Shown piece by piece: positions 2,532 through 21,284 of a stretch of 21,284 bases of DNA (its first letter is position 1; each line of letters starts with the position of its first letter). The stretch comes from a virus, in the IMG/VR virus record IMGVR_UViG_3300045996_002272, positions 1 through 21,284 of that record, one strand, 5' to 3'. The notes below the pieces were generated by a model that saw only the letters and a program-made list of their open reading frames with translations, had not been told where the DNA came from and did not search any database. A program made the translations under genes and the position numbers.

Positions 2532-2560
2532 ACTGTAGCGATTCGCTATGGCGATAGCAA
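2532..2560 (-). promoter_or_regulatory. probable leftward early promoter (PL-like)
   Basis: On the minus strand TTGCTA (2560-2555) and TACAGT (2537-2532) are separated by 17 bases and would start transcription about 30 bases before the ATG at 2495. The match to the sigma-70 consensus is moderate. Two operator-like palindromes overlap the -35 and -10 elements, which is what a repressed early promoter should look like. Confidence 0.5.
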
Positions 2561-2603
2561 GCGAATCGCTATGCTGTTACAAAATTGTTTTTATCGATTC
2601 GCT
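2537..2603. promoter_or_regulatory. left operator cluster (OL-like), three palindromes
   Basis: Perfect AGCGATTCGCT at 2537-2547, perfect AGCGAATCGCT at 2560-2570 (the same palindrome on the other strand) and ATCGATTCGCT at 2593-2603 with one mismatch. Centres are 23 and 33 bases apart. The same 11-base sequence occurs three times on the other side of the repressor gene at 4299-4353. Such paired clusters are the signature of a lambda-type repressor and Cro acting at left and right operators. Confidence 0.8.
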
Positions 2604-2646
2604 CGCAAGTGCCCCGTTGCAACGATCGAGGGCAATGACCAGGCGC

Positions 2647-2669
2647 AAAAAAACCCGCCTGAGCGGGTT
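2647..2669 (-). terminator. intrinsic terminator of the lysogeny operon
   Basis: AACCCGC and GCGGGTT form a perfect 7-bp stem around a 4-base loop (2652-2669). On the minus strand it is followed by a run of seven T (2653-2647). It lies about 20 bases past the stop of the lipoprotein gene and before the left operators, so it ends the cI transcript and insulates the leftward early promoter. Confidence 0.9.
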
Positions 2670-2689
2670 CGTCTTTAGAACACCATGGG

Positions 2690-3094
2690 TTAGCGGCCGG
2701 GCAGCTCACTCGGGCTAACGAGGGTGTTGAACAGGTTGGTAGCGTTGTTCACCTGGTTCATGCATGCCGCCCCGTTGTCCACGTAGCATTGGAACCGGGC
2801 CTGGATGAGGTAGACGCCATCCGGCTGCGGGGACTTGGTCACCACTGCACCGAGCCTGCCATACGTGTTCGGGCTGAACGTCTCCAGTCGGCTGTCCGAC
2901 ACCAGCCGGAGTTTCATCCCCGATGTTGTCGAGGCTGCGTCCTGGGCCTTGATCCAGAGCGCCTCGCATCCTCGCGGCGTGACGCACTTCGGCACCAGAG
3001 TTGTCACTGGCGATACGGAGACGGGCTGCGGCGCCGCGCAGGCGGCGAGCAAGAGGGCCGCTGCGGCCGCGGCAATTGATGGTCTGCTATTCAC
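2690..3094 (-). CDS. lysogeny-operon lipoprotein, 134 aa
   Basis: GTG start at 3094 with GGGGAG eight bases upstream. Residues 1-18 are a lipoprotein signal peptide: a short basic n-region, an Ala/Leu core and a lipobox LAAC with Cys19 as the acylated residue. The residue after Cys is Ala, so the outer membrane is the likely destination. The mature part has four more cysteines (KCVTPRGC near 36-43, then FQCYVDNGAAC near 101-110) that could form two disulfides in the periplasm. It is the third gene of the repressor transcript and ends 20 bases before the terminator, so it should be made in the lysogen. That placement suggests a lysogenic-conversion or superinfection-exclusion role, which is inference. 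The protein family is not recognised. Confidence 0.75.
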   Translation of the reverse strand: MNSRPSIAAAAAALLLAACAAPQPVSVSPVTTLVPKCVTPRGCEALWIKAQDAASTTSGMKLRLVSDSRLETFSPNTYGRLGAVVTKSPQPDGVYLIQARFQCYVDNGAACMNQVNNATNLFNTLVSPSELPGR

Positions 3095-5419: not shown

Positions 5420-5716
5420 ATGTCGACCCTCAGCACGCACCTCGATTCGCTCCGCCGTCGCCTGGACGAGCTGAAGCCGCTGGACTTCCAACCGACCATC
5501 ATCGGCCTCGATGTCACGGAGTTCCCTCCCGAGCAGCAACCTTTGATGCTTGCGGAGTTCGAGGCCCGCGTCGCCGAATTGGCGAGGAAGCACTACCCAG
5601 ACGCCGACAAGATGGGCGAGTTCGCTGAGGCGAGGATCTGGCCGCAGAGCGTCCATTCCAAGCAGGTTGCTGAGTGGGCCGACACCGTGCCGATGGGTGA
5701 AGAGGTGGCGGCGTGA
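5420..5716 (+). CDS. hypothetical phage protein before the methyltransferases, 98 aa
   Basis: ATG 5420 follows GGAGA and ends in a 4-base GTGA overlap with the cytosine methyltransferase. The product starts with a helical, charged region (STHLDSLRRRLDELKPLDF), continues with strand-like TIIGLDVTEFPPE and then a second helical part (AEFEARVAELARKHY, MGEFAEARIW). It lacks cysteines, signal and membrane segments and is probably a small soluble protein. Coupling to the methyltransferase suggests coordinated dosage, perhaps a helper or modulator, but nothing in the sequence shows that. I do not recognise the family. Confidence 0.7.
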   Translation: MSTLSTHLDSLRRRLDELKPLDFQPTIIGLDVTEFPPEQQPLMLAEFEARVAELARKHYPDADKMGEFAEARIWPQSVHSKQVAEWADTVPMGEEVAA

Positions 5717-7359
5717 TTTCATCTCAGTACCTTCTCCCGATCGCCTCCGAACTCGTGGTCGATCTCTTTGCGGGCGGTGGCGGCGCGAGCACTGGAATCG
5801 AGCAGGCCATTGGTCGGCACGTCGACATCGCGGTGAACCACAACGCCGAGGCGGTGAGTCTCCACCAGGCGAACCACCCGCAAACGAGGCACTTCATTAG
5901 CGACGTGTTCGAGGTGGACCCGCTTGAAGTCACCGGCGGTCAAGACGTCGGCCTGCTGTGGGCGTCGCCTGACTGCAAGCACTTCAGCAAGGCGAAGGGC
6001 GGCAAGCCCGTGTCAAAGAACATTCGCGGTCTTGCCTGGGTGGTCGTCAAGTGGGCCAAGCTTGTGCGGCCCCGTGTGATCTGCCTCGAGAACGTCGAGG
6101 AGTTCAAGACCTGGGGACCGCTCGGTGAGGATGACCGGCCGTGCCAGATCCGCAAGGGCGAGACCTTCCGCGAATGGAAGTCGGAGCTCGAGGGGTTGGG
6201 CTACGTGGTCGAGCACCGCGAACTGCGCGCTTGCGACTACGGTGCGCCGACGATCCGCAAGCGCCTGTTTCTCGTGGCGCGCTGCGATGGGCAGCCGATC
6301 GTGTGGCCGACCGCCACCCACGGACCGGGCCTTAAACCTCACCGCACCGCCGCCGAGTGCATCGACTGGTCGCTCCCGTGCCCTTCGATCTTCGAGCGAG
6401 AGCGCGAACTCGCGCCGGCCACCATGCGGCGCATCGCTCATGGGATCAAGCGCTACGTGCTGGACGCGGCGAAGCCGTACATCGTGCGAATCGGGCAAAC
6501 CGGGCACGGAGACGCCGGGAAGACGCGGGGCATCGGAGAGCCGCTTTCAACTGTCACGTCGAAGGCTGAGCACCTGCTTGCGTCTCCGACGCTGGTACAG
6601 ACGGGGTACGGTGAGCGCCCAGGCCAGGCGCCCCGTGTGCCAGGCCTCGACAAGCCGCTCGGCACCTGCGTGGACGGACAGAAGCATGGCTTGGTCGCGG
6701 CCTTCATGGCCAAGCACTACACCGGAGTGGTGGGTAGTGAGCTGCCTGCACCGATCGGCACGGTCACGACCGTCGACCACCACAGCCTTGTGGCCGCAAC
6801 CCTCGTTGACTCTGCCCACAGCGATGTGTCGCCGTCAGGAGTCAAGCGATGGAGCCACGGCAACCGGCCGGCCACCGCCCCGTTGCCGACCGTGCTCGCA
6901 AGCGGCGGCAACTCCGCCTTGGTCACGAGCCACCTCGCCAAGCTGCGCGGCACGAGCTCAAGCGCGTCGTCCCAAGAGCCGCTGCACACCGTAAGCGCCC
7001 AAGGACAGCACCATGCTGAGGTGCGTGCGCTTCTCTTGAAGTATTACGGCACCGACCAAGACCCGCAGCTGGGTGCGCCGCTCCATACGGTCACGACGAA
7101 GGATCGTTTCGGACTCGTGACGGTGAAGGGCCAGGACTACTACATCGCGGACATCGGCATGCGGATGTTGCAGCCCCGCGAGCTCTACCGAGCGCAAGGC
7201 TTCCCCGACAACTACGTGATCGACCGCGGACACGATGGCCGTGTGCTGTCCAAGGCAGCGCAGGTTCGCATGTGCGGAAACAGCGTGTGCCCGCCGCTCG
7301 CTCGGGCGATCGTGGCGGCGAACTACGCAGAGCAGGTTCCGATGCGGGAGGCGGCGTGA
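5713..7359 (+). CDS. phage C5-cytosine DNA methyltransferase with repeat-built target region, 548 aa
   Basis: Transfers methyl from S-adenosylmethionine to carbon 5 of cytosine in DNA. GTG 5713 overlaps the upstream stop. Motif I is VVDLFAGGGGAS (residues 15-26). The catalytic motif IV is SPDCKHFS with Cys88, the prolyl-cysteine preceded by Asp rather than Pro. Motif VI is LENVEE (125-130), motif VIII APTIRKRLFLV (178-188) and motif X GNSVCPPLARAI (522-533). The target-recognition region (about 275-475) holds six diverged copies of a unit beginning PLxTVT and ending LVxAxL, at about 275, 313, 344, 387, 420 and 454. There is no neighbouring restriction enzyme, so it is an orphan enzyme, probably protecting phage DNA from host restriction or marking it for other phage proteins. 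The enzyme class is sure; target sequence is unknown. Confidence 0.93.
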   Translation: MISSQYLLPIASELVVDLFAGGGGASTGIEQAIGRHVDIAVNHNAEAVSLHQANHPQTRHFISDVFEVDPLEVTGGQDVGLLWASPDCKHFSKAKGGKPVSKNIRGLAWVVVKWAKLVRPRVICLENVEEFKTWGPLGEDDRPCQIRKGETFREWKSELEGLGYVVEHRELRACDYGAPTIRKRLFLVARCDGQPIVWPTATHGPGLKPHRTAAECIDWSLPCPSIFERERELAPATMRRIAHGIKRYVLDAAKPYIVRIGQTGHGDAGKTRGIGEPLSTVTSKAEHLLASPTLVQTGYGERPGQAPRVPGLDKPLGTCVDGQKHGLVAAFMAKHYTGVVGSELPAPIGTVTTVDHHSLVAATLVDSAHSDVSPSGVKRWSHGNRPATAPLPTVLASGGNSALVTSHLAKLRGTSSSASSQEPLHTVSAQGQHHAEVRALLLKYYGTDQDPQLGAPLHTVTTKDRFGLVTVKGQDYYIADIGMRMLQPRELYRAQGFPDNYVIDRGHDGRVLSKAAQVRMCGNSVCPPLARAIVAANYAEQVPMREAA

Positions 7360-9053
7360 GCGACTGCACACCGGTTCCAGGTGCCGTCGGCGACAAGGCC
7401 AGCCGGTGCTGCCAGGGCGACAGCATCAGTTTCACGGTTCATCACGGCGACTGCCTCGACGTCCTGCGCGGCATGGCGGACAACAGCGTGGACAGCATCG
7501 TCACCGATCCGCCCTATGGCTTGTCCTTCATGGGCAAGAAATGGGACTACGACGTGCCGAGCGTTGCCATCTGGGTTGAGTGCCTCCGGGTGCTGAAGCC
7601 GGGCGGCCACCTCCTGGCCTTCGCCGGCACGCGCACGCAGCACCGGATGGCGGCACGCATCGAGGACGCCGGGTTCGAGATCCGCGACCTGATCGCCTGG
7701 GTGTACGGGTCAGGATTCCCGAAGTCGCTGGACGTGTCGAAGGCGATCGACAGTCTGGACGCGGCAGAAGCTCGCACCGAGCGCCGCTACCGCTTCACCG
7801 AGTGGTTCAAGCCTGTGTGCGTCCTCACAAAAGCAGAAATGGACGCTGTGTGCGGAACCGCTGACATGGGGCGTCACTGGACCGACGTGCGCCCGAATGG
7901 CAGGCAGCCTGACGTTCCGACGCGGCAGCACTTTGAGAAGCTGCGCCCGTACATCGCCGCCCTCGTGCCCGATTGGATTGAGGAGATGGTCGACCAGCGC
8001 ACCGTCGAGTCGGAGAACTTCAAGCGCCGCGCCATTGTTGGCGCCAAGGAGATGCGCGACACGTCGGAAGTGCGGATCGCGGTCACGGCGAATGCTGAGA
8101 CCTACGATTGCGGCGCCCGTCGATTCGTCAGCCTTACCGCGGCGTCGACTGACGCCGCCCGCCAGTGGGAAGGCTGGGGCACCGCCCTGAAGCCAGCGCT
8201 TGAGCCGATCACCGTGGCACGCAAGCCGCTGATTGGCACTGTCGCTGCCAACGTGTCGGAGCACGGTACCGGCGCGATCAACGTGGACGCCTGCCGGATA
8301 CCCGGGGGACTACTCCCGCCGAACACGGGCAACGGCGCGTTGCCTCGCCGCCATCAAGACGAGGTGCGCGCGCCTGGATTCGTTTCGCAGCCGAGCGAAC
8401 TGGGCCGCTGGCCTGCCAACTTGGTCCACGACGGCAGCGACGACGTGCTCGCCGCCTTCCCCCAGGCGCCCGGCCAGATGGCGAAGGCCAGCAAGAGCGA
8501 CACGCAGCGGGCTGGGCAGAACGCCTACGGTGCGATGGCGCGCGGATCGAACGGCGCGCCGCCTCGCGGGGATGCAGGAAGCGCGGCACGGTTCTTCTAC
8601 TGCGCCAAGGCCAGCCGCAAGGACCGCGGCGGGGGCAACAAGCACCCGACCGTGAAGCCCACGGACCTCATGCGCTACCTGTGTCGGCTCGTCACGCCAC
8701 CCGGCGGCCTGGTGCTCGACCCGTTCACTGGTTCGGGCAGCACCGGCAAGGCGGCCGTCCTTGAGGGTTTCCGGTTCGTCGGCGTCGAGCGCGATGCGGA
8801 TTCGGTGGCGACCGCTGAGCAGCGGATTGCCGAGGCCGCAGCGACCGGGCCTGCAGGCGCAGATGACGTGCTGCAGGAGCCGGGGCAGGAAGTCGCCGCC
8901 GATGAGTCGTCGACCCAAGAGCTTGAAGCGGCCGAGCCGGTGCCGGCCGCGGCGAGCTCTGAGCCAGTCCTCCGCGAAGGCCCTCGCCGCGCCAAGGCGC
9001 CAAAGGCTGTCGCGCCGATCAATCAACTGGACATGTTCGAGGCATCCGCATGA
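7356..9053 (+). CDS. phage amino-methyltransferase (N6-adenine or N4-cytosine), 565 aa
   Basis: GTG 7356 is chosen because it overlaps the previous stop as GTGA and keeps the conserved start; the frame opens 28 codons earlier inside the other gene. Motif IV DPPYG (51-55) comes first and motif I DPFTGSGSTG (455-464) last, the beta order of N4/N6 methyltransferases. LKPGGHLLAFAG, TALKPALEPI and HPTVKPTDLM are typical of the phage branch. Residues 140-235 are an insertion that could be a helical DNA-recognition module (RYRFTEWFKP, RQHFEKLRPYI, WIEEMVDQRTVE). Residues 490-565 are an Ala/Glu-rich tail ending NQLDMFEASA. It forms an orphan pair with the cytosine enzyme, likely giving double protection from restriction. 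Whether it methylates A or C, and where, cannot be read from the sequence. Confidence 0.92.
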   Translation: MSDCTPVPGAVGDKASRCCQGDSISFTVHHGDCLDVLRGMADNSVDSIVTDPPYGLSFMGKKWDYDVPSVAIWVECLRVLKPGGHLLAFAGTRTQHRMAARIEDAGFEIRDLIAWVYGSGFPKSLDVSKAIDSLDAAEARTERRYRFTEWFKPVCVLTKAEMDAVCGTADMGRHWTDVRPNGRQPDVPTRQHFEKLRPYIAALVPDWIEEMVDQRTVESENFKRRAIVGAKEMRDTSEVRIAVTANAETYDCGARRFVSLTAASTDAARQWEGWGTALKPALEPITVARKPLIGTVAANVSEHGTGAINVDACRIPGGLLPPNTGNGALPRRHQDEVRAPGFVSQPSELGRWPANLVHDGSDDVLAAFPQAPGQMAKASKSDTQRAGQNAYGAMARGSNGAPPRGDAGSAARFFYCAKASRKDRGGGNKHPTVKPTDLMRYLCRLVTPPGGLVLDPFTGSGSTGKAAVLEGFRFVGVERDADSVATAEQRIAEAAATGPAGADDVLQEPGQEVAADESSTQELEAAEPVPAAASSEPVLREGPRRAKAPKAVAPINQLDMFEASA

Positions 9054-18796: not shown

Positions 18797-18979
18797 ATGA
18801 AGATCCTCGCCATCATGCGCCCGGTCTACGAGCGCTTCGGCTGGTTCAAGGTCGACGTGCAGGCTGAGTGGCAGTCCGGCGCCGTCACCAAGGGCACCAT
18901 GCAGTTCCGCACCCGCGTGGAGGCCGAGGCCATCAAGCCGGGGCACGAACAGCATGAGCCCACATCGGGCGTTGGTTAG
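18797..18979 (+). CDS. small hypothetical protein, 60 aa
   Basis: ATG 18797 follows GAGGT. The product alternates strand-like parts (MKILAIMRPVYERFGWFKVD, VQAEWQSGAVTKGTMQFRTR) with a short helix (VEAEAIKPGHE), suggesting a tiny beta-rich domain. It ends with TAG at 18977-18979, overlapping by four bases with the TAA of the oppositely oriented DUF6232-like gene (shared TTAG). No family is recognised. The direct contact of converging stops shows a tight, stable junction. Confidence 0.6.
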   Translation: MKILAIMRPVYERFGWFKVDVQAEWQSGAVTKGTMQFRTRVEAEAIKPGHEQHEPTSGVG

Positions 18980-19341
18980 CCCCGTGACACGATCGCGTCA
19001 TTGAGTGCGACGACGACCCGCTGGAGGTATTCCTTCGATTGGGTGGTCAACGCACTGGTCTCTCCGCCCGACGTCGTGAGCAGGACGTGGTAGGTCGCTT
19101 TCCCTGCCCACAAGCACAGAGCGCCGACAGCAGCCAAGCCCAGCGCCCAGCCCCAGGCGCTGTTGTACGCCGTGATCGCCGCAATGATGAGAGCGATGAG
19201 ACCGAACCCCATCAGCGAGGACGGCTCTTCCTTGGTCTTCACCGAAGTGACGTTCTGCATCACGTAGGTCTGACCGTTAACCAGGAATCGGGCGTTCGTC
19301 ACCTTAACGCCGGGTTCCTCGAAAAACGTCTTCTCGTCCAT
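18976..19341 (-). CDS. DUF6232-like two-pass membrane protein, 121 aa
   Basis: ATG 19341 follows a very strong AGGAGGAG ribosome site on the minus strand. The N-terminal part (residues 5-42) contains TFFEEPGVKVTNARFLVNGQ and MQNVTSVKTKEE, a cytoplasmic strand-rich domain typical of DUF6232. Two adjoining membrane helices follow at about 44-62 (GFGLIALIIAAITAY) and 64-82 (WGWALGLAAVGALCLWAG). A C-terminal domain (85-121) has LLTTSGGETSALTTQSKEYL and a helix VVVALNDAIVS. It stands alone on the opposite strand to the late genes, as lysogenic accessory genes do. Its role is unknown; membrane sensing or envelope protection would be guesses. Confidence 0.75.
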   Translation of the reverse strand: MDEKTFFEEPGVKVTNARFLVNGQTYVMQNVTSVKTKEEPSSLMGFGLIALIIAAITAYNSAWGWALGLAAVGALCLWAGKATYHVLLTTSGGETSALTTQSKEYLQRVVVALNDAIVSRG

Positions 19342-19386
19342 TCCCGCTCCTCCTGTTTGTGGTGCGGGGATTATGTCGATCCGCCG

Positions 19387-19569
19387 GTGAATCCGGCACT
19401 CCCGCGGATGTGGACCGCCCGTGCAGATCGCACGGTCGAGGCGACCGGCTCGGCCTCACTTGAGGTCGGACAAGACAATTCGGCCGTAAGCGCGGGAGCG
19501 CAATCCGGCAGCGGGTGGAATACCGCCGGAAAGTGGGCTCAGGCCCGCGGCGTAACCGGCACCAAATGA
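19387..19569 (+). CDS. possible small soluble protein, 60 aa
   Basis: GTG 19387 or ATG 19408 could start it; there is no good ribosome site, so support is weak. The product is Ala/Gly/Ser-rich (TVEATGSASLEVGQDNSAVS, then SGSGWNTAGKWAQARGVTG) and ends ten bases before the start of the next gene, which has an excellent ribosome site overlapping the space. The repeated small residues could mean a short beta-rich domain. The interval 19342-19579 otherwise shows only the probable promoter of the minus-strand DUF6232-like gene near 19370 (CATAAT as a possible -10). Confidence 0.35.
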   Translation: MNPALPRMWTARADRTVEATGSASLEVGQDNSAVSAGAQSGSGWNTAGKWAQARGVTGTK

Positions 19570-19579
19570 AAGGGGCTCA

Positions 19580-19849
19580 ATGAGCCTGGCCGAAGCAGTC
19601 CTCAACTCCCTAGTGGGAGCAGTCCTGCTGGTGGCGTACCTGCTGCTCGCAGGCTACATCGAGATCCGAAGATCACGCGGCGCAGGTGACGGGCTCACCC
19701 GCCAGCCTTCCAAGCTGAGCAGAGAAGGGTTCGATTCCCTCGCGCCGCTCCAGAGCGATTCCCCTCATGCCCCGCAGTCCGAAGCGGCCCCGGCAGGGGT
19801 AAGTGCCGGGTATTCCTCACGACGTCAAGACGCGCCCCGTTCGTGCTGA
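19580..19849 (+). CDS. small single-pass membrane protein whose frame contains a tRNA gene, 89 aa
   Basis: ATG 19580 follows GAAAGGGG, a strong ribosome site. Residues 5-28 form one membrane helix (AVLNSLVGAVLLVAYLLLAG), followed by basic EIRRSR. From residue 33 to 58 the codons are those of a tRNA-like gene (19677-19752) on the same strand. The remaining 31 residues are polar and unstructured. The last 25 bases overlap the end of the converging 285-residue gene. The membrane part looks genuine; the C-terminal half probably has low importance or arises from readthrough of the tRNA segment. No family is known. Confidence 0.5.
   Translation: MSLAEAVLNSLVGAVLLVAYLLLAGYIEIRRSRGAGDGLTRQPSKLSREGFDSLAPLQSDSPHAPQSEAAPAGVSAGYSSRRQDAPRSC
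19677..19752 (+). tRNA. tRNA-Gly(UCC)-like gene with an atypical D arm
   Basis: A 76-base element with encoded CCA. The acceptor stem GCGGCGC/GCGCCGC is a perfect 7-bp match. The discriminator U73 and the G1-C72 and C2-G71 pairs are those of bacterial glycine tRNAs. The anticodon loop CTTCCAA gives UCC with U33 and A37, on a stem CAGC/GCTG. The T loop is TTCGATT with GGG/CCC pairs. Departures from canon: A at position 8 in place of U, a D stem with a loop only five to seven bases long, a C-A mismatch at the top of the anticodon stem and an A-C mismatch at the base of the T stem. It may be a working phage tRNA, a decaying one or a tRNA-like RNA. Confidence 0.6.
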
Positions 19850-20682
19850 TCGGGCAAGGGCGCTCCCGCAGCAGCCAGCGCCTCATCGGCGTTCGTCGGT
19901 ATGGCTGCCTCGTCGCTCGCCTCGCGGCCCTTTAGCTGCAACTTCGCCAAGGGGGTGAGTTGGAGGAGTTTCGATTGCCTCGGGTTGCCCTTGCGCAAGT
20001 AGAAGGCGGTCGCGACGCCAGCGAGCATCGCCGGAATCAACAAGTAGCTCAGCGGCAAATATCTCTCAATGGTCATGCCCATCCGCTCTGCAGAGGTGCC
20101 GCGGAGGACCTCACCAACCCCGCGAGAGTGGAGCAGTCGGACCTTGTCAAACTCGTAGTATTGGAGGTGGAAGTCGCCCCAACCTTGGACCTCAGTGGTA
20201 GCAAAGGGGGCCATCTTCCCCAGTTGGACCGGGGCGAGAGGATTAACTGGCTTCCCTCCCACTTCCACGTGCCTTGGCATGTCCCTCGAATCGAAAACGA
20301 GCTGGACATCTTCGAGATGTGTGACACCTCGGTTCCTTACCACGGCCCGCCAGACTGACCTCGTTGGATGCCAGCGCGGATCTGAAAGTGTGCCGGGAAG
20401 ACCGGCAAGCAGCTCATCGACTGCCGAGGCTGCTGCGCTGAGTTGGGGAGGGGCAAGGGTCACCCCGGCTTTTCGAAGCTTCGTCTCCAGGTAGCGTTCG
20501 GCGCCTACGCCACGGATGGCATCCCTTTGTCTGACCTGGGTCGCAGGTTCGTCAAATTGGATCGAGGTGAACTCGACACTGAGGTCGTCCTTTGGTTTCG
20601 CCAGGAAGTCGTAGACCACCACGACGGCGGTCAGGATAGACGCAATGCCGACGACTCGAGCAAGCCGGCCCGACGGATTCAT
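19825..20682 (-). CDS. accessory two-pass membrane protein, 285 aa
   Basis: ATG 20682 follows GGGGAAGAG on the minus strand. The first membrane helix is at about 7-27 (LARVVGIASILTAVVVVYDF). Residues 30-205 form a large domain, probably periplasmic, with helix AERYLETKLRKAGV and strands such as SVWRAVVRNRGVTHLEDVQL and WGDFHLQYYEFDKVRLLHS; this part recalls immunoglobulin-like folds. The second membrane helix is at 212-229 (SYLLIPAMLAGVATAFYL), leaving a cytoplasmic tail rich in Ala, Glu and Lys. It stands alone and opposite to the late genes, as lysogenic-conversion genes do. A 10-of-11 match to the repressor operator lies 60 bases upstream. No known family; envelope modification or exclusion is only inferred. 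Confidence 0.72.
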   Translation of the reverse strand: MNPSGRLARVVGIASILTAVVVVYDFLAKPKDDLSVEFTSIQFDEPATQVRQRDAIRGVGAERYLETKLRKAGVTLAPPQLSAAASAVDELLAGLPGTLSDPRWHPTRSVWRAVVRNRGVTHLEDVQLVFDSRDMPRHVEVGGKPVNPLAPVQLGKMAPFATTEVQGWGDFHLQYYEFDKVRLLHSRGVGEVLRGTSAERMGMTIERYLPLSYLLIPAMLAGVATAFYLRKGNPRQSKLLQLTPLAKLQLKGREASDEAAIPTNADEALAAAGAPLPDQHERGAS

Positions 20683-20755: not shown

Positions 20756-21284
20756 ATGGGCCGTAAATCAAAGCTGACCGAGCGCCAGTGGGAGGACATC
20801 GGCAAGCGTCTCCTCGCCGGTGAGAAGGGCAGGGCGCTTGCCAAAGAGTACGGGGTAGCAGAGTCGACCATCCGTGAGCGCTTTTCCGCGCTGCACGGAA
20901 AGGTGAAAACCGTTGCGAATCAAATGGTTGCGACGGAGCAGGCTCTGCGCGAACTTCCCATTTCCGCGCAAATAGCCGCGCATAACCTCGCAGACGAACT
21001 GCGGGCAATTTCCATCCACCTGGCAGGGGCCGGGAAGTACGGTGCAGCGACGGCGCACCGGCTGTCCGGCATCGCTCACGCCAAGGTGCAAGAGATCGAC
21101 GACGCAGCGCCACTGGATGAAAAGAGCCGCGAGGCCTTGCGTGACGTGGCGGTCCTCACCGAGATGGCGAACAAGTCCTCGCACATCCCGCTGAACCTGT
21201 TGGCTGCCAACAAGGACATCGTCAAGGACCTGAACCAGCAAGACCCGGTGCAGCCGGTGAGGGTCACGATCATGGTTGAAGATG
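20756..21284 (+). CDS. terminase small subunit-like protein (partial)
   Basis: ATG 20756 opens a frame that runs past the right edge (176 residues visible). The ribosome site is poor (CTCTCC precedes the ATG). Residues 5-45 form a DNA-binding helix-turn-helix (LTERQWEDIGKRLLAGEKGR, then ALAKEYGVAESTIRERFSAL). A long helical region follows, with NQMVATEQALRELPISAQIA and NLADELRAISIHLAGAGKYG, then HRLSGIAHAKVQEID and LLAANKDIVKDLN. This order of an N-terminal helix-turn-helix plus coiled-coil oligomerisation part fits a small terminase subunit, which binds the packaging site and recruits the large subunit. The large subunit would be expected next, off the window. Role inferred from form and place at the start of the late region. 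Confidence 0.68.
   Translation, partial: MGRKSKLTERQWEDIGKRLLAGEKGRALAKEYGVAESTIRERFSALHGKVKTVANQMVATEQALRELPISAQIAAHNLADELRAISIHLAGAGKYGAATAHRLSGIAHAKVQEIDDAAPLDEKSREALRDVAVLTEMANKSSHIPLNLLAANKDIVKDLNQQDPVQPVRVTIMVED

Follow-up and report, generated by a model that had tools for sequence, protein, structure and literature searches.

Canonical tRNAs have U8 plus one more nucleotide as the connector between acceptor stem and D arm, and glycine tRNAs direct GlyRS through G1-C72, C2-G71, C35, C36 and U73. A different topology, with a single connector nucleotide, a small D loop, an elongated anticodon stem and a 3-nt variable loop, is described for tRNA-Pyl and for mammalian mt-tRNA-Ser(UCN) in a review whose text does not mention phage (PMC7609411). 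For tRNAG1, the tRNA-Gly(UCC) of phage T5, a GenBank note states that a version with a replaced anticodon is an effective amber suppressor. In the open-access literature we found no description of a T5-type glycine class and no experimental structure or charging data for it; older work on T5 tRNAs may have drawn the structure.

In this work we analysed a 21,284-base stretch of viral DNA (the window) that carries one glycine tRNA gene. The element is very probably a functional tRNA-Gly(UCC) that belongs to a distinct class borne by phages, of which T5 tRNAG1 is the best-known member. The features of the locus are collected in Table 1.

Table 1. Features of the tRNA-Gly(UCC) locus (window positions)
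Feature	Position	Strand	Evidence
tRNA-Gly(UCC) gene, T5-type architecture, CCA encoded	19677..19752	+	ARAGORN; model R1; covariation
Acceptor stem, 5' strand GCGGCGC, pairs with 19742-19748	19677..19683	+	sequence
Single connector nucleotide A8	19684..19684	+	sequence
D arm: 5-bp stem GGTGA/TCACC, 5-nt loop CGGGC with GG	19685..19699	+	covariation
Anticodon arm: 6-bp stem GCCAGC/GCTG-GC, bulged A at 19718	19701..19720	+	all cells paired
Anticodon loop CTTCCAA; anticodon TCC at 19709-19711	within 19701..19720	+	sequence
Variable loop AGA, 3 nt	19721..19723	+	sequence reading of architecture
T arm: G-C pair, bulged A at 19725, AGGG/CCCT; loop TTCGATT	19724..19741	+	covariation
Acceptor stem, 3' strand GCGCCGC, discriminator U73, CCA	19742..19752	+	sequence
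89-codon ORF, N-terminal hydrophobic segment, reads through the tRNA; status as protein gene doubtful or unproven	19580..19849	+	ORF list
AAGGGG, ribosome-binding-site-like, for the 89-codon ORF	19570..19575	+	sequence; kept in L002
Exchangeable cassette (ORF plus tRNA)	19549..19866	+	95.3% identical to L002 5970-6287
Terminase-small-subunit-like gene, head of late/packaging region, runs off the record	20756..21284	+	HTH_7

Architecture and covariation of the tRNA-Gly(UCC) class

The sole tRNA of the window is a 76-nt element that ARAGORN calls tRNA-Gly, anticodon tcc. A first-pass annotation had seen in it a tRNA-Gly(UCC)-like element with a perfect 7-bp acceptor stem, an encoded CCA and glycine identity bases, and the sequence and the ARAGORN call bear this out: G1-C72, C2-G71, C35, C36, U73 and CCA are all present. 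It had also noted that U8 is replaced by A, which is correct, and that the D arm is irregular, which does not hold, as the arm is regular if a single connector nucleotide is taken to precede a 5-bp stem with a loop of 5 nt. The U8-A14 tertiary contact is lost in this tRNA, and the 15:48 contact is probably lost as well.

Some 40 distinct sequences from numerous phages have this architecture, T5's tRNA-Gly(UCC) among them. Their 5' half consists of a 7-bp acceptor stem, one connector nucleotide (usually A), a D stem of 4-5 bp with a 5-nt loop containing GG, and one C; their 3' half has a 6-bp anticodon stem whose 3' side carries one bulged nucleotide, then a variable loop of 3 nt, a T stem that often has a single bulge, the T loop TTCGANT, U73 and CCA. 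The window element has the connector, D arm, C linker, bulged 6-bp anticodon stem and variable loop of the class. The oddities that had been taken as the sign of a special-purpose RNA are the common architecture of a class of phage tRNA-Gly, T5's included, that occurs in tRNA arrays.

The class was gathered in several ways. A tblastn-type search with the 89-codon open reading frame (ORF) returned 16 loci (L numbers denote collected loci), and in 15 of these the tRNA part alone matches; inspection of their DNA shows that the anticodon/T half is near-identical and that the acceptor and D stems differ. Pattern searches gave 33 distinct sequences of one architecture, and more were added from named phages. 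Because the gathering patterns fix most of the anticodon arm, other anticodon arms having come only through BLAST, the invariance of this arm is partly by construction. Anticodon loops other than UCC were not found when the loci collected up to that point (hundreds of tRNA genes) were scanned for the architecture.

The D region separates two subclasses: it is 16 nt long with a 4-bp D stem in one, and 18 nt long with a 5-bp D stem in the other. In the 18-nt, window-type subclass (n = 9: the window, L002, L080, L104, L116, L142, L149, T5 and Klebsiella phage Boggle) all 207 of 207 cells are paired (100%), two-sided changes occur at 14 of the 23 pairs, and the covariation score is 0.636 versus 0.195 in shuffles (0/500 shuffles). 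Two-sided changes affect four of the seven acceptor pairs and all five D-stem pairs (alignment A4); in the anticodon stem C27-G44 is replaced by U27-A44, a compensatory change, in phage Boggle (L163), and the 48:65 pair is G-C in eight sequences and U-A in L104. For the 16-nt subclass, 98.2% of the cells are paired, with two-sided changes at 10 of 22 pairs. Slid controls fall far below the true alignment in both subclasses. G1-C72 and C2-G71 are invariant across both; the connector nucleotide is A in 9/9 sequences of the 18-nt subclass, and A, C, U or G in the 16-nt subclass. Between the window and L002 one of the 76 tRNA positions differs, which changes a C-G pair to a U-G pair. The pairing and the two-sided changes in the window-type subclass are those of a selected RNA fold, and the window element belongs to a structurally distinct, phage-borne tRNA-Gly class whose fold is under selection. 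When the isolated window RNA is folded without constraint, a rival GC-rich fold is 2.8 kcal/mol lower (-34.9 vs -32.1); free folding of the T5 RNA gives the class structure, one T-arm pair excepted.

These observations bear on the idea that the RNA is a pseudogene or a decayed remnant, passively carried. The unusual D arm, the 27:43 mismatch and the lack of U8 could be read as decay, one related gene is annotated as a tRNA-Gly pseudogene, and the Rfam tRNA model is not reached. However, some 40 distinct sequences have these oddities in common and show compensatory changes in the acceptor, D, anticodon and T stems, the identity bases are kept, and the T5 copy is reported to function as a suppressor. 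The pseudogene reading is strongly disfavoured by the covariation, and we consider it very improbable. The 27:43 mismatch itself was rejected as a mark of decay: C27/A43 is also found in otherwise ordinary phage tRNA-Gly(UCC), so that by itself it is not diagnostic of the class, and a bulged six-pair stem explains it better. A tRNA-Gly(UCC) of phage TPWB-08 (28835-28905; L165 401-471), which scores 65 bits with model R1 and in which 27:43 is paired without a bulge, may be intermediate between the canonical tRNA and the odd class.

Detection by tRNA finders and covariance models

Model R1 was built from 26 other phage sequences, all of the 16-nt subclass, with the window left out. It scores the window element at 78.4 bits, with an E-value (rough for R1) of 2.5e-17 in 21 kb. 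Rfam RF00005 (gathering score 29 bits) gave no match in the window, and region scans with Rfam models, run at the gathering score and again with E-values allowed up to 10, gave none above threshold; the best match of the clan is tRNA-Sec, with 27.1 bits, under that family's own cut-off. The covariance-model search proposed in the first-pass annotation thus had a divided outcome, the Rfam tRNA threshold being missed and the phage-family model matching well. To discard the tRNA for a score below threshold, one part of the refuting condition in that annotation, would have been misleading here, because the Rfam tRNA and tRNA-Sec models do not cover the T5-type architecture.

Other members of the class also escape a standard finder. 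ARAGORN misses the copies of T5, PPSC2, 4MG, AhP_Mru1, Boggle and Klebsiella DP, and most of the T-bulged copies. In the PPSC2 and 4MG records neighbouring tRNAs are annotated and the class tRNA-Gly is left unannotated, and one record labels a class member as a tRNA-Gly pseudogene. Since class members are missed by ARAGORN or score too low for the Rfam tRNA model, and at least one carries a pseudogene label, counts of phage tRNAs run too low in a single slot, Gly(UCC). Phage 4MG also has, between its Glu and Trp tRNAs, a tRNA-like gene with undetermined anticodon (L160 566-635; Rfam tRNA 38 bits).

Genomic context and role as a glycine tRNA

The tRNA gene lies toward the terminase-small-subunit-like (terS) gene, from which it is separated by a minus-strand gene (19825-20682) for a 285-aa protein with no family match, whose 3' end overlaps the 89-codon frame. 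On the other side the ORF and tRNA are flanked by a gene for a DUF6232 protein (18976-19341, minus strand). Farther away, adjacent DNA methyltransferase genes, of C5-cytosine and N4/N6 type, occupy 5713-7359 and 7272-9053, their listed frames overlapping. Neither a near-identity search of 11 kb of the window nor a search with the terS protein found a match among named phages. Relatives of the terS-like protein are present in 22 viral contigs, several of which have ordinary tRNAs just upstream of terS; in L080 the class tRNA-Gly itself is just upstream of terS, and in the Pseudomonas loci the class RNA is in the region near the terminase genes. These positions fit an arrangement in which tRNA genes head the packaging/late region. 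In L080 (4057-4206) and L142 (4317-4466) ARAGORN calls a tRNA-Leu(caa) directly after the odd tRNA-Gly, with an overlap of 18 nt; an extra T-arm-like hairpin lies between the two, and this region is possibly another non-canonical tRNA.

When 84,980 species genomes were searched for the exact pattern of the Pseudomonas-prophage version, it turned up in two contigs, of P. guariconensis and P. monteilii, and no plasmid copy of this version was found. In a set of 398 Pseudomonadota genomes a score above 70 bits is reached only by the copy in the P. guariconensis prophage, and the chromosomal tRNA-Gly(UCC) genes inspected among the next-best matches are all canonical.

At phage attachment sites the 3' end of a host tRNA is often found. 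This is the sole point in favour of the element being a tRNA part used for attachment, a reading that is inconsistent with the sequence and that we regard as close to negligible, given that the tRNA is complete and has an acceptor stem of its own, that it differs from the host tRNA-Gly(UCC) in the D arm, the top of the anticodon stem and the T stem, and that it lies at the packaging-gene end, with relatives that sit in tRNA arrays of large phages. These arrays argue for a glycine tRNA: those of L098 (27 tRNAs), L100 (14) and L147 (22) have no ordinary Gly(UCC) tRNA by ARAGORN and have the class RNA in the Gly(UCC) slot instead. An array holding the odd tRNA-Gly adjoins, in viral contig L156, a tmRNA-like gene (2532-3020) with the tag peptide ANDNIYALAA and an ARAGORN asterisk.

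From this family context we infer how the window copy would be expressed and benefit the phage. It would be transcribed as part of the region that immediately precedes the terminase genes, and RNase P and 3' nucleases of the host would trim the transcript, the CCA being already encoded. Host GlyRS would charge it through G1-C72, C2-G71, C35, C36 and U73, and it would then read GGA and GGG codons, supplementing or replacing the host tRNA during infection. A scan of 19300-20000 found no promoter and one weak, minus-strand terminator-like match near chance level.

The 89-codon frame around the tRNA

As the first-pass annotation had stated, the tRNA lies on the same strand inside the 89-codon frame, and the proposed ribosome site is present 5' of the frame's ATG. 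This overlap is restricted to two known phage contigs, the window and L002, which share a 95% identical cassette. On the 3' side of the cassette the two are unrelated, L002 going directly to a different terS. The class tRNA is elsewhere found without the frame (L002 cassette apart), and the ORF protein has a relative, 96% identical in amino acids, only in L002. No Pfam or PHROG family matches the ORF, and a tblastn search of named phages returned tRNA parts or chance matches. The shared peptide QPSKLSREGFDSL was rejected as a sign of protein conservation because it arises from translating the conserved tRNA.

The frame may encode a small membrane protein, with the tRNA lying in it by chance, as the comparison with L002, the one on which this rests, would allow. 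RNase P cleavage and 3'-end processing are the known steps of tRNA maturation; if frame and tRNA were both made from one transcript, they would cut the message. The frame could be a real gene whose message is switched off by the processing of a tRNA on the shared transcript. AAGGGG and the ATG are kept in L002, the N-terminus is hydrophobic, the limits of the ORF are closely matched by those of the conserved cassette, and outside the tRNA six of the ten substitutions between the window and this single relative are synonymous, for about three under neutrality (P 0.04-0.07). On the other hand, an open frame of 89 codons is unremarkable, since frames of such length are common in DNA of 65% GC (the window has 163 ORFs of at least 60 aa), no protein family is matched, homologues beyond L002 match only through the tRNA, and most class members have no such frame. 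We consider this reading unlikely, and the evidence that the frame is coding weak.

Discussion

Our observations on the tRNA-Gly(UCC) class raise the question of what its altered parts are for. Phage tRNAs are known counter-defence tools. T5 tRNAs defeat the Retron and PARIS defences (PMC11555353, PMC12409363). The window tRNA might be kept mainly as a replacement that escapes toxins or defences targeting tRNA-Gly, such as FaRel2-like toxSAS enzymes or GNAT toxins that acetylate Gly-tRNA, via the changes at acceptor pairs 4-5 and in its core. FaRel2 picks tRNA-Gly and tRNA-Thr via G1-C72, C2-G71, G4-C69 and Pu5-Py68 (PMC11559606), and Py5-Pu68 is present throughout the nine window-type sequences, that of T5 among them, six of which lack G4-C69 as well; despite these altered pairs the 18-nt subclass keeps the first two acceptor pairs needed by GlyRS. 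However, G4-C69 and Pu5-Py68 are mostly kept in the 16-nt subclass, and ordinary phage tRNA-Gly likewise vary at pairs 4-5, for which reasons the FaRel2 pattern is a lead and not a result. The anticodon loop, CUUCCAA, is the same as that of the Pseudomonas host tRNA, and for the suggested escape from anticodon nucleases a route by an altered loop is therefore not indicated. Altogether, evasion as the main reason for keeping the tRNA is possible but rather doubtful. As a broader conjecture, which we think unlikely, many phages, T5 included, would share a non-canonical tRNA-Gly(UCC) that has a tRNA-Pyl/mt-Ser(UCN)-like core and that standard finders mostly overlook; the core and the altered acceptor pairs would sustain glycine translation when defences disable host tRNA-Gly.

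Several known systems come close to the window element. T5 tRNAG1 (AY543070 29177-29252) is also 76 nt long and has a connector A, a 5-bp D stem with the loop CGGGN, the C linker, a 6-bp anticodon stem with bulged 43, a 3-nt variable loop, a bulged T stem, UCC, U73 and CCA. The two differ in the sequences of the acceptor and D stems, and in position, as tRNAG1 adjoins other tRNA genes whereas the window tRNA is single, next to terS and inside an open frame. The tRNA-Gly(UCC) of Vequintavirinae, Otagovirus and Pseudomonas prophages (examples are Kashira, 4MG, PPSC2 and the P. guariconensis and P. monteilii prophages) are of the same class (R1 at least 85 bits); in contrast with the window they have a 4-bp D stem (16-nt D region), and their T stem is bulged or not. 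Canonical bacterial tRNA-Gly(UCC) shares with the window tRNA the anticodon loop, the GlyRS identity bases and the T loop, but has two connector nucleotides with U8, a longer D loop, an unbulged 5-bp anticodon stem and an ordinary variable loop.

Bacterial tRNA-Sec resembles the window tRNA in its long D stem and short D loop, in line with the weak covariance match; a tRNA-Sec identity is ruled out, as the window tRNA has UCC and not UCA, no 8-bp acceptor stem and no long variable arm. In topology the class resembles tRNA-Pyl and mammalian mt-tRNA-Ser(UCN), with which it shares the connector, D loop, anticodon stem and variable loop, and from which it differs by its glycine anticodon and identity and by the bulges at 43 and 49. 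It also keeps the GG of the D loop and the TTC of the T loop, which are absent in tRNA-Pyl. A tRNA-Pyl identity (CUA anticodon, PylRS partner, no GG or TTC) is ruled out by the UCC, GG and TTCGA of the window tRNA. The topology with a short D loop and a six-pair anticodon stem, found in tRNA-Pyl and mt-tRNA-Ser(UCN), thus arose in a glycine tRNA of phages that use bacterial ribosomes, and through the T5-type class it becomes a testable question why this odd core is favoured, and only with UCC.
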